This document shows, piece after piece, positions 56,628-61,102 of a stretch of DNA of 64,000 nt. The position numbers and the translations under genes were made by a program. The stretch is from Olsenella sp. An293 (GTDB taxonomy: Bacteria > Actinomycetota > Coriobacteriia > Coriobacteriales > Atopobiaceae), in contig NZ_NFIT01000002.1 of assembly GCF_002159495.1 (NCBI RefSeq), positions 62,001 through 126,000 of the forward strand, read 5' to 3'. Under the pieces are notes generated by a model. The model was not told the DNA's origin. It did not search any database and saw only the letters and a program-made list of their open reading frames with translations. The stretch's first letter is position 1, and the number at the start of each line of letters is the position of its first letter.

Positions 56628-56663
56628 CGAGGCCCTGGGGCTGCCCGGGGCCTCGAATTGTTT
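56628..56663 (+). terminator. Terminator of the pentose island
   Basis: CGAGGCCC-type arms (56628-56635 and 56648-56655) enclose 12 bases and are followed by AATTGTTT, just past rpiB. Confidence 0.6.
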
Positions 56664-56703: not shown

Positions 56704-56709
56704 TACACT
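56704..56709 (+). promoter_or_regulatory. Candidate -10 of argG
   Basis: TACACT lies about 65 bases before the leader peptide start. The -35 is weak. No clear ArgR box was recognised. Confidence 0.35.
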
Positions 56710-56775
56710 CAGCCACGTCAGACAGCCGCGGGCCAATAGCCCGCGCCCGCTCAACTACTGAGGAGGCCAACGTTG

Positions 56776-56871
56776 ATGAACGTTCACAGCGCGCACGCAT
56801 GTGCCGCCCTCCTCACTGCCCGACGCCAGATGCGACGAATCTCGCCCGCGATGTCGCGCGCGACGCTCTAG
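56776..56871 (+). CDS. Arginine-rich leader peptide of argG
   Basis: A 31-codon open frame follows GAGGAGG at 9 bases. It encodes five arginines (two pairs, codons CGA CGC and CGA CGA, then a CGC), in the segment TARRQMRRISPAMSRATL. It ends about 35 bases before a terminator-like hairpin at 56906-56923, and the argG start is at 56980. The frame is too short for a normal protein and its arginine content fits a transcription attenuator that senses charged arginyl-tRNA. It is new to this annotation and unproven. Confidence 0.6.
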   Translation: MNVHSAHACAALLTARRQMRRISPAMSRATL

Positions 56872-56930
56872 CTTGACGGTTCTTCTCGACAGACCGAGCT
56901 CCTGCGCCCCGCGACGTCGGGGCATTTCTG
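56844..56930 (+). promoter_or_regulatory. Candidate argG attenuator
   Basis: GCCCCG (56906-56911) and CGGGGC (56918-56923), followed by ATTTCTGT, form a terminator-like hairpin. The segment at 56844-56857 (GCCCGCGATGTCGC), inside the leader frame just after the arginine codons, can pair with 56911-56923 instead. A ribosome stalled at the first arginine pair would leave this segment free and allow antitermination. Confidence 0.55.
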
Positions 56931-56979: not shown

Positions 56980-58209
<1,230 letters not shown>

Positions 58210-58252: not shown

Positions 58253-58288
58253 CGGCCGGCGGAAGGTTCCCTTCCGCCGGCCGTTTTT
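58253..58288 (+). terminator. Terminator of argG
   Basis: A 14-bp stem (CGGCCGGCGGAAGG with its complement) and a 3-base loop are followed by TTTTT. Confidence 0.93.
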
Positions 58289-58444: not shown

Positions 58445-59545
58445 CTAGTAGTTTCCGAGCGATATGCCGCCCGCCCACGGATAGAGCGACCAGATGAGCC
58501 GCTGCCTGCGCGCAGCATGGGGTTGCTCGAGGGCTCGTCGTGTCGCCGCCCCCGTCTCGCCGCTCGCGCCGGCGAGCTGTTCGGCGGCAATGACCGCCTC
58601 AAGCACCACGGAGTCGAGACCTCCTAACTCCATGAGGTCTTCGGCGACGATGGGGAGCACAATTCTTCCGCTTGCAAGAAGCTCTCTGTTGCGGCGCAGG
58701 TCATCGACGTATTTTTCCCGGACGCGAGCAAGTGCGGCCTTGAGCTCGTCCTTTTCGAGCCTCTCCACGTCAATCGAGCTGAGGTCTAGGTGCCCGTAGC
58801 CGTCGTAGTTGAGCCCAACGGGAAGATCTCCCAGCGAGATATCAGGCACCCTGGCCTTGTTCGTCACCCAGGGCCTGAGCTCCCGACCAATCAGCTCCCG
58901 CGCATTAAGCTCGATGTTTCGAATGCCAAACCCGTCGTCCTCGAGCGGACGGACGAGCACTAGTGCCACGAGCGCCTCCATTGCGGACCACGCATTGTCG
59001 CGGACGTTCTCGAGTGCTGCCAACGCGCGCTCCCTGCCCTTGACTCGACGGCAGGAGCGTACGTAACCCTTGATCTTCGCAACGTTGGTGAGTGGCGCCA
59101 CTTCATGGACGACCCCGCCCGTCCGTGGGTTGGTCGCGTCGCGCACGAAAGTGCCGCACAGCTCATATCCCAGCAGCTCCAGGGCCGCGCGATCCATCAC
59201 GCTGGCGAGCTCGAGGAAGAGGAGCTCGGGGCACGGGACGGTAAAGGTCTCGGATACGCGCGCAAATGATCCGCGCGGAATGCCCTCGCCGTAAACCGTG
59301 GTCGACATGAAGCGGGCCTTTGGCCGCGAACGGGCGTCTGGCGAGACGACGTAGATTGGGCGACTTTCGCTCGGGGGATTCAAAAGCCCAACAAGCTGGT
59401 AAGGGATGAGGCGTGAGGTCCACCGCCGCTGTGGCCAGGGGTCGGGAGCGGGGATGCCGCACGATTCCTTTGGCATGCTAAGCCCCTCGGCCCGAAGACT
59501 CCGGACGAGCGCGAGAGCGGTCAGGCTGTTAACGCACAGATGCAT
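58445..59545 (-). CDS. Nuclease-like hypothetical protein (DUF559/AbiEi-like layout)
   Basis: This 366-residue protein resembles a group of actinobacterial proteins with an AbiEi-like N-terminal half and a DUF559/Vsr-like PD-(D/E)XK C-terminal half. Possible catalytic residues are the Glu of AMEALV, the Asp of VPDISLGDLP and NYDGYGHLD. The N terminus (MHLCVNSLTALALVRSLR) fits that group, so I start at 59545; an ATG at 59560 and a better ribosome site before 59476 are alternatives. The gene runs against its neighbours between argG and argH, with an AT-rich upstream palindrome and a 34-bp inverted repeat at its end, which suggests a later insertion. The function is not established. Confidence 0.6.
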   Translation of the reverse strand: MHLCVNSLTALALVRSLRAEGLSMPKESCGIPAPDPWPQRRWTSRLIPYQLVGLLNPPSESRPIYVVSPDARSRPKARFMSTTVYGEGIPRGSFARVSETFTVPCPELLFLELASVMDRAALELLGYELCGTFVRDATNPRTGGVVHEVAPLTNVAKIKGYVRSCRRVKGRERALAALENVRDNAWSAMEALVALVLVRPLEDDGFGIRNIELNARELIGRELRPWVTNKARVPDISLGDLPVGLNYDGYGHLDLSSIDVERLEKDELKAALARVREKYVDDLRRNRELLASGRIVLPIVAEDLMELGGLDSVVLEAVIAAEQLAGASGETGAATRRALEQPHAARRQRLIWSLYPWAGGISLGNY

Positions 59546-59568
59546 GCTAATTCCAAACATTAATAGAC

Positions 59569-59710: not shown

Positions 59711-61102
59711 ATGGCGCTTTGGGGAGGCAGGTTCGAGAAGGGCGTGGACCAGTTCACGCAGGAGTTCGGAGCAAGCCTCGAGGTCGACAAGAACATGGCG
59801 GCCCACGACATCGCCGGCAGCCGCGCGCACGCCCGGATGCTCGCCGAGCAGGGCATCATCTCCGGCGAGGACCAGGCCGCTATCGACGCGGGCCTCGCCG
59901 AGATCGCCGCGCAGATCGCGGACGGCACCTTCCCCTGGGACGTCAACGACGAGGACGTCCACATGGCCGTGGAAAGCGCGCTCACCCGCGCGATCGGGGC
60001 CCCGGGCGGGCGTCTGCACACCGGCCGCTCCCGCAACGACCAGGTCGCCACCGACATCCGCCTGCTCGCCAAGGAGCTCTGCGACCAGCTGCTCTCCGGC
60101 AACGCGGCCCTGCGCCGCGCCCTTCTGGAAGCCGCCGAGAAGAACCTCGACGTCGTGATGCCCGGCTACACGCACCTCCAGCACGCCCAGCCCGTGCTGC
60201 TCTCCCACCACCTGCTCGCGTATTTCTGGATGTTCACGCGCGACTTCACGCGCCTCACCGCCGCGCGTACGGCCGCGGACGCCAACCCGCTCGGCGCCGC
60301 GGCGCTCGCCGGCACCACCTACCCGCTCGACCGCGCGCGTACCACGGAGCTGCTGGGCTTCTCGGCCACGATCCCCAACTCGCTCGACGCCGTCTCCGAC
60401 CGTGACTACCTGCTCGACCTTGAGTACGCCTGCGCCGTGAGCATGATGCACCTCTCGCGCCTGTGCGAGGAGATCGTGCTGTGGAGCTCTACGGAGTTTG
60501 GCTTCATCACGCTCTCGGACAGCTACTCCACCGGCTCCTCGATCATGCCGCAGAAAAAGAACCCCGACTTCGCCGAGCTCACGCGCGGAAAGTGCGGCCG
60601 CGTCTACGGCGACCTGATGGCGCTGCTCACCACCATGAAGTCGCTGCCGCTGGCCTACAACAAGGACCTCCAGGAGTGCAAGGAGGGCCCGCTCGACGCC
60701 GCGCGCACGCTCTCGGACTGCATGGAGATCGCCGCGGGCATGATCGAGACCATGACGGTGAACGCCGACGTCATGCTCGCCCAGGCGGGCACGGGCTTCT
60801 CTGCCGCCACGGACGTGGCCGACTACCTCGCCAAGAAGGGCATGCCGTTCCGCGAGGCGCACCGCGTGGTGGGCGAGCTCGTCCTCTATTGCGAGAAGAA
60901 CCACAAGGGCCTCGAGGACCTCACGCCCGAGGAGTTTGCCGCGGCGAGCCCGCTCTTCGAGGCGGACATCGCACAGGACCTGGATCCCGCCGGCATCGCA
61001 AACGCCCGCGTGACCTATGGCGGCACCGGTCACGATGCGGTTGTCGTGCAGCTTGGCGAGGCGCGCGCGTCGCTTGGGGAGGACGAGGCCGCCCTGCGGT
61101 AG
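59711..61102 (+). CDS. argH: Argininosuccinate lyase
   Basis: ArgH splits argininosuccinate into arginine and fumarate, the last step of the pathway. The 463 residues show the N-terminal LWGGRFEKGVD, HTGRSRNDQVATD, TPGYTHLQHAQPV and the superfamily signature GSSIMPQKKNP with the catalytic Ser. AAGGAG precedes the ATG. It is followed by purB after about 50 bases, another member of the same superfamily. Confidence 0.97.
   Translation: MALWGGRFEKGVDQFTQEFGASLEVDKNMAAHDIAGSRAHARMLAEQGIISGEDQAAIDAGLAEIAAQIADGTFPWDVNDEDVHMAVESALTRAIGAPGGRLHTGRSRNDQVATDIRLLAKELCDQLLSGNAALRRALLEAAEKNLDVVMPGYTHLQHAQPVLLSHHLLAYFWMFTRDFTRLTAARTAADANPLGAAALAGTTYPLDRARTTELLGFSATIPNSLDAVSDRDYLLDLEYACAVSMMHLSRLCEEIVLWSSTEFGFITLSDSYSTGSSIMPQKKNPDFAELTRGKCGRVYGDLMALLTTMKSLPLAYNKDLQECKEGPLDAARTLSDCMEIAAGMIETMTVNADVMLAQAGTGFSAATDVADYLAKKGMPFREAHRVVGELVLYCEKNHKGLEDLTPEEFAAASPLFEADIAQDLDPAGIANARVTYGGTGHDAVVVQLGEARASLGEDEAALR

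Follow-up and report, generated by a model that had tools for sequence, protein, structure and literature searches.

A predicted arginine-specific transcription attenuator upstream of argG in Olsenella and its relatives

Introduction

Genes for arginine are generally thought to be under ArgR control. Classical attenuators, such as those of proteobacterial trp, his, leu, phe, and thr and of actinobacterial trp and leuS, combine repeated codons for the end product, a terminator, an exclusive antiterminator located after the regulatory codons, and a biosynthetic gene downstream (PMC1262725). A survey of the Actinobacteria described leader-peptide elements for trp, ilv, and leuS and saw none for arginine operons (PMC1262725), and neither argG nor arginine is mentioned in a broad survey of terminators (PMC2965389). 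Our searches of open-access papers found arginine-codon leaders only for Salmonella speF (PMC6386406), to which the Pseudomonas carA leader can be added as far as it is described in PMC4997734. The speF leader ORF, orf34, contains consecutive arginine codons and senses arginine via ribosome pausing (PMC6386406). The carA leader encodes a leader peptide, with attenuation proposed to occur before a gene shared by arginine synthesis (as cited in PMC4997734). In Firmicutes, the T-box of arginine genes, as mentioned in PMC1262725, allows tRNA charging to switch a terminator.

Here, we analyzed a 64,000-nucleotide (nt) stretch of the Olsenella sp. An293 genome (contig NZ_NFIT01000002.1; referred to below as the window) together with related genomes. 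We conclude from sequence comparison and folding models that an element upstream of argG is very probably a classical ribosome-mediated transcription attenuator specific for arginine, which would sense the supply of arginyl-tRNA.

Results

An initial annotation of the window had described a 31-codon frame with five arginine codons and a strong ribosome site, followed by a GC hairpin and ATTTCT before argG. We found each of these elements at the positions claimed (56776-56871 for the frame and 56906-56929 for the hairpin and tail). The features of the locus, each with its basis, are as follows.

56704-56709, plus strand: candidate -10 box TACACT (aligned upstream regions of relatives)
56728-56744, plus strand: 5' untranslated region (UTR) hairpin (conservation in close relatives)
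56760-56766, plus strand: leader Shine-Dalgarno sequence GAGGAGG (sequence)
56776-56871, plus strand: leader peptide ORF, product MNVHSAHACAALLTARRQMRRISPAMSRATL (frame kept in 70/71 leaders)
56821-56838, plus strand: regulatory codons CGA CGC CAG ATG CGA CGA (RRQxRR), the predicted stall site (codon conservation)
56844-56876, plus strand: antiterminator 5' arm, with core helix 56844-56858 (pairs with 56893-56923)
56893-56923, plus strand: antiterminator 3' arm, covering the complete terminator hairpin, loop included (pairing analysis)
56906-56929, plus strand: intrinsic terminator, a stem-loop at 56906-56923 (-10.8 kcal/mol) followed by ATTTCT (sequence, fold, and covariation)
56980-58209, plus strand: argG, the regulated gene in the proposed model (TIGR00032)

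The arginine codons of the leader ORF (31 codons plus stop) are, in order, CGA, CGC, CGA, CGA, and CGC, and its ATG is spaced 9 nt from the Shine-Dalgarno sequence, which can itself pair with a CCUCCUC within the leader to form a sequestering hairpin. The downstream gene was identified as argG, encoding argininosuccinate synthase (TIGR00032, 493 bits), and rpiB lies upstream of the leader. A strong terminator (58253-58283) and an opposite-strand orphan ORF separate argG from argH (59711-61102), which in many relatives is close behind argG. The intervening ORF (58445-59560, minus strand, 371 amino acids) had no match in Pfam, NCBIfam, PHROGs, or PADLOC and may be an orphan gene or a wrong-frame ORF. 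On the other side of the locus, a strong, terminator-like hairpin is found 3' of rpiB (56628-56655; CGAGGCCCTGGGG...CCCGGGGCCTCG AATTGTTT), which would shield the argG leader from transcription arriving from upstream.

A consensus scan upstream of the leader detected no promoter, and the -35 region is poor. The hexamer TACACT at 56704-56709 is TATAGT in most relatives, and the 22 aligned Thermophilibacter-type leader upstream regions all carry CTATAGT or CTACACT, share sequence 3' of this box, and diverge 5' of it, making it a candidate -10 box from which we infer a transcription start near 56715. Between this presumed start and the leader ribosome site lies a hairpin (56728-56744, GCGGGC-CAATA-GCCCGC) that close relatives retain, in two of them with compensatory changes (GCGAGC/GCTCGC in L016 and GCAGGC/GCCTGC in L040), although others show mismatches. 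As the single-sequence fold of the whole leader is unremarkable (z = -1.7), the case for attenuation rests on comparison with relatives.

The window belongs to the Thermophilibacter/Olsenella group, in keeping with the earlier guess of Coriobacteriia. To make this comparison, we collected argG upstream regions from about 130 loci. These yielded 71 distinct motif-bearing leaders, with minus-strand loci of the L003 type represented by duplicates. In 70 of the 71 leaders, a start codon preceded by a Shine-Dalgarno sequence leads into the motif in the arginine frame; in no leader does this occur in either of the other two frames. Conservation of the frame and hairpin in close relatives was one point on which the initial annotation had staked its reading, and both are kept, the terminator in nearly all relatives. 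The conserved arginine codons and covariation that it had suggested looking for in related leaders were also found, with codons near-fixed and compensatory changes present (see below). The 17-nt DNA pattern was rejected as a sole marker of the element, as most genomes contain a few chance matches elsewhere.

The conserved part of the leader peptide is a near-invariant RRQxRR, yet its N-terminal portion is unconserved, its length varies between about 20 and 33 residues, and its stop position shifts. At the codon level, position 1 is CGA in 65/71 leaders, which is every case in which it encodes arginine; position 2 is CGC or CGT in 69/71; position 3 is CAG in 70/71; position 5 is CGA in 71/71; and position 6 is CGA or CGT in 71/71. 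Arginine accounts for 5 of the 31 leader codons, compared to 6.7% across 35 window genes, and CGA accounts for 3 of these 5, compared to 3.4% of arginine codons in the same genes (binomial, 4e-4), with the 35 genes (filtered by GC3/GC2) serving as a stand-in for the whole genome. The 15 arginine codons of argG itself comprise 14 CGC, 1 CGT, and no CGA.

The tRNA-Arg genes found by ARAGORN have the anticodons ACG (one gene), CCG, TCT, and CCT, and none with a TCG anticodon was among the tRNA genes that it found. By standard wobble rules, tRNA-Arg(ICG) reads CGA, CGC, and CGT, with CGA read via a weak inosine-adenine pair, and CGA is normally the poorest codon of this tRNA. Given a tRNA-Arg set with ACG and without TCG, every arginine codon of RRQxRR should therefore be read by a single tRNA-Arg(ACG/ICG). 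Simple counting of arginine codons would demand neither the glutamine at position 3 nor the position-specific wobble bases (CGA-CGY-CAG-nnn-CGA-CGW), and the constraint on the motif may come in part from codon context, from inosine wobble, or from the nascent peptide.

These same features raise the alternative of nascent-peptide arrest like that of TnaC or SpeFL, in which RRQxRR would interact with the exit tunnel and stalling would be induced or relieved by arginine or a different ligand, with the same terminator/antiterminator output. Indeed, the glutamine is near-fixed although it is no regulatory codon, and RRQxRR is a hexapeptide of set order, not just a loose string of arginines. However, codon 4 is free (12 different codons among the 71 leaders), the tunnel-lining residues N-terminal to the motif are the unconserved ones, and the L040 leader retains just QxRR (SQMRR). 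Moreover, stalling induced by arginine would turn argG on in arginine excess, which is the wrong direction. We therefore consider arrest by the nascent peptide unlikely and favor stalling on arginine codons.

The terminator hairpin of the window, GCCCCG-CGACGT-CGGGGC (56906-56923), is followed by ATTTCTGT, and its ATTTCT tail is weaker than that of most relatives (TTTTCT or TTTTTT). A terminator is found between the leader and argG in nearly all relatives and is often textbook (ACCCGGCATCGCCGGGT TTTTTT); in a handful, terminator detection failed or chose another hairpin. The antiterminator segment proposed in the initial annotation (56844-56857) is correct, and the full helix is longer, with 56844-56858 pairing with 56910-56923 plus a further extension. 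In all sequences examined, a segment starting 0 to 8 nt after the last arginine codon of the motif can pair with the whole terminator region, with an energy of -26 to -45 kcal/mol for most leaders (that of L082 was obtained only with its terminator misassigned).

Both arms of this predicted helix change together. A terminator-loop change from CGCGACGTC to CGCAACGTC in L035 and L039 is matched in the leader by a change from GACGTCGCG (L014) to GACGTTGCG, and the distant-clade helix adjoining the terminator varies in sequence as GTGTTGTTC/GAACAGCAC (L104), GTGTTGTCT/AGACGGCAC (L180), and GTGCTGC/GCAGCAC (L060). In the near-clade alignment (A1), 93% of antiterminator cells are paired, compared to 17 to 48% when the arms are slid, and three pairs show double changes, one of them resting on misaligned rows. 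This MAFFT alignment misplaces the short leaders L010, L040, L109, and L031 at the terminator, so that they are partly counted as broken pairs, and a G-C/C-G swap at A1 columns 38/95 was dropped as evidence because of these four leaders. In the distant-clade alignment (A2), 82% of cells are paired, compared to 33 to 44% when slid, and double changes occur in 9 pairs and in 34 cells, a cell count reached in 0/500 shuffles; the counts for this clade lean toward the antiterminator because the structure was taken from single-sequence folds. RNAalifold recovered the terminator of this clade, whose stem covaries (A-U 15/G-C 7), and not the antiterminator.

Cognate arms out-paired arms swapped from diverged relatives in 61/62 leaders, with mean pairing of -34.6 for cognate, -28.6 for swapped, and -22.7 for shuffled arms. 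Shuffle ranks of individual antiterminators are modest, mostly 0.02 to 0.4 in the near clade. The covariation counts are not independent, as the leaders are related and the structures derive partly from the same sequences, and we read them as support rather than as probabilities. Collectively, these comparisons support a mutually exclusive antiterminator, predicted from sequence, with compensatory changes in both main clades.

To model the switch, RNA as far as 15 nt from the codon in the A-site was made unavailable for pairing and the rest was folded, at equilibrium and without transcription kinetics. For the window's leader, the probability of the terminator is about 0.00 with the A-site at any codon up to Arg20 (Arg16 to Arg20 included), rises to 0.36 at Arg21, 0.77 at Ile22, and 0.98 at Ser23, and is 0.80 or more from Ser23 to the stop. 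Over 62 leaders, its mean is 0.24 with the first motif arginine in the A-site, 0.47 with the last, and 0.96 at the stop. The distant clade separates less cleanly in this model than the window's clade, and L180 and L159 stay terminated. Without translation, the full leader has a terminator probability of about 0; the model thus gives readthrough, unlike in trp, because the leader folds revealed no 1:2 protector hairpin such as trp-type attenuators have. In the model, starvation stalling would give readthrough and completed translation would give termination, the behavior expected of a classical attenuator. The ribosome stalling at arginine codons that the initial annotation had inferred has thereby gained a predicted switch within 2 codons of the last conserved arginine codon, and the response to arginine remains a prediction.

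ArgR is encoded in the window's genome (G000:C30:20304-20456). A conserved RNA element that overlaps the ORF by chance and binds a protein or ligand, such as ArgR or an arginine riboswitch, would account for nucleotide-level constraint such as the fixed wobble bases of CGACGYCAGnnnCGACGW. It would not account for a frame held in 70/71 leaders and never displaced to another, and searches of the window and leader against Rfam gave no family near threshold and no T-box match. Further, ArgR-box-like sites in 72 leader upstream regions are not clearly above shuffled sequence (mean best score, 9.2 versus 8.9), and an ArgR match is absent from some leader-bearing genomes (G028 and G004), one of which is a complete single contig. 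Several leaderless relatives, in contrast, have such a site, some of them Collinsella-like: ArgR-box-like palindromes lie upstream of argG in L062 (TATGCATAAAACTGCATA) and, in similar form, in L068, L096, and L097, those of L062 and L068 scoring 13/14. An independent RNA element is thus very unlikely, in our view, compared to an attenuator that is read by the ribosome. The boxes in leaderless lineages suggest that an ArgR box stands in place of the leader there, which would be a replacement of one control by another. In the window's genome, no leader precedes argC (argC and argB are both present) or argH, so argG appears to be the only one of the examined arg genes that is under attenuation.

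When 397 genomes of the order were searched with a covariance model built from the distant clade, about 84 contained the element at E below 1e-7, with matches above 1e-6 excluded from this count; about 74 of these genomes are in the window's family and 10 are in one genus of a second family. In the second family, all 5 loci examined bear a leader (e.g., MFATAQQFSFRRQDRRNTLRCTRVFLAVHTR), and argG is next where the downstream frame was read. Matches in the window's family that were compared with argG positions lie 100 to 300 nt 5' of the gene. Phylum-wide matches in G709, G593, and G424 (E of 1e-5 to 1e-7) were rejected, having no argG nearby and no leader-type frame. Matches outside the order look like chance, and we restrict our claim to the order.

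The element adjoins only argG in the loci examined. This bears on the idea that the product of the ORF is a functional small protein and that the hairpin is an unrelated terminator of the leader transcript. Long-term conservation of the ORF would fit a small protein, but conservation is limited to the arginine motif while length and stop position vary, and the antiterminator coevolves with the terminator. Together with the constant association with argG, these observations make a small protein extremely improbable and favor a regulatory leader.

In the argG tree, leader-bearing genes occur on either side of deep splits, with several leaderless groups nested among them (the tree marks L029 as leaderless, although a leader is present in the same genome as L185). 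An early origin followed by several losses is the simplest reading of this tree; independent gains or transfer could also have produced the distribution. Among Collinsella-like loci scored as leaderless, L085, L086, L090, and L091 have short ORFs upstream of argG that end in arginine codons (...ATRRQRAISRRR and ...ALPRRR, each followed by a stop), possibly a diverged form of the leader. In genera g25 and g26, L163, L164, and L099 have degenerate-looking leaders (SLRRMNRQDA, ECHARRTTQ, and LRRRAIRISQRR, each followed by a stop), possibly representing loss in progress.

Discussion

The argG leader has a translatable ORF, clustered codons for the end product, a terminator, an exclusive antiterminator, and compensatory changes. 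In the model that we propose, transcription would begin near 56715 and translation of the leader would follow immediately. Under a shortage of charged tRNA-Arg, the ribosome would stall on CGA CGC CAG xxx CGA CGA, and its downstream edge would leave the RNA from 56844 free to pair with the whole terminator region, allowing RNA polymerase to read on into argG. With ample arginine, the ribosome would proceed to the stop codon and cover the 56844 segment, such that the hairpin at 56906-56923 would form and transcription would end. The transcription start, the ribosome stalling, and the response to arginine are predicted steps of this model.

A more elaborate reading, which we offer as possible but doubtful, has two parts. 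RRQxRR with its near-fixed CGA-CGY-CAG-nnn-CGA-CGW would be specialized for stalling, its sensitivity to the charging of tRNA-Arg(ICG) depending, beyond the counting of arginine, on the order of its codons, on inosine wobble at CGA, and possibly on the nascent peptide. In sister lineages, ArgR-box control would have taken the place of an argG attenuator of ancient origin.

A conserved, covarying attenuator of argG would bring arginine into the phylum's list of classically attenuated amino acids. The leader offers a small regulator open to testing in gut bacteria that have received little study, and its near-fixed CGA codons make codon choice in attenuators directly testable. The sister lineages form a natural series for comparing attenuation with repressor-box control of argG.

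The mechanism is known; its arginine/argG instance in this bacterial group appears to be undescribed in the open-access literature. The Firmicutes T-box, as far as PMC1262725 mentions it, likewise couples tRNA charging to a terminator but binds tRNA directly and has no leader ORF. The Pseudomonas carA leader, within what PMC4997734 relates, belongs to another phylum and controls carAB by pyrimidine-responsive attenuation, with no sequence relation to the argG leader shown. The speF leader of Salmonella resembles the argG leader in its arginine codons but controls ornithine decarboxylase, acting through Rho termination, translation initiation, and RNase G decay without an intrinsic terminator (PMC6386406). 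The closest likeness in architecture is to the classical attenuators of trp, his, leu, phe, thr, and leuS (PMC1262725), from which the argG element, in addition to the protector hairpin not found in its folds, differs in its amino acid and gene (arginine and argG), in the near-fixed order of its RRQxRR motif, and in its CGA codons.
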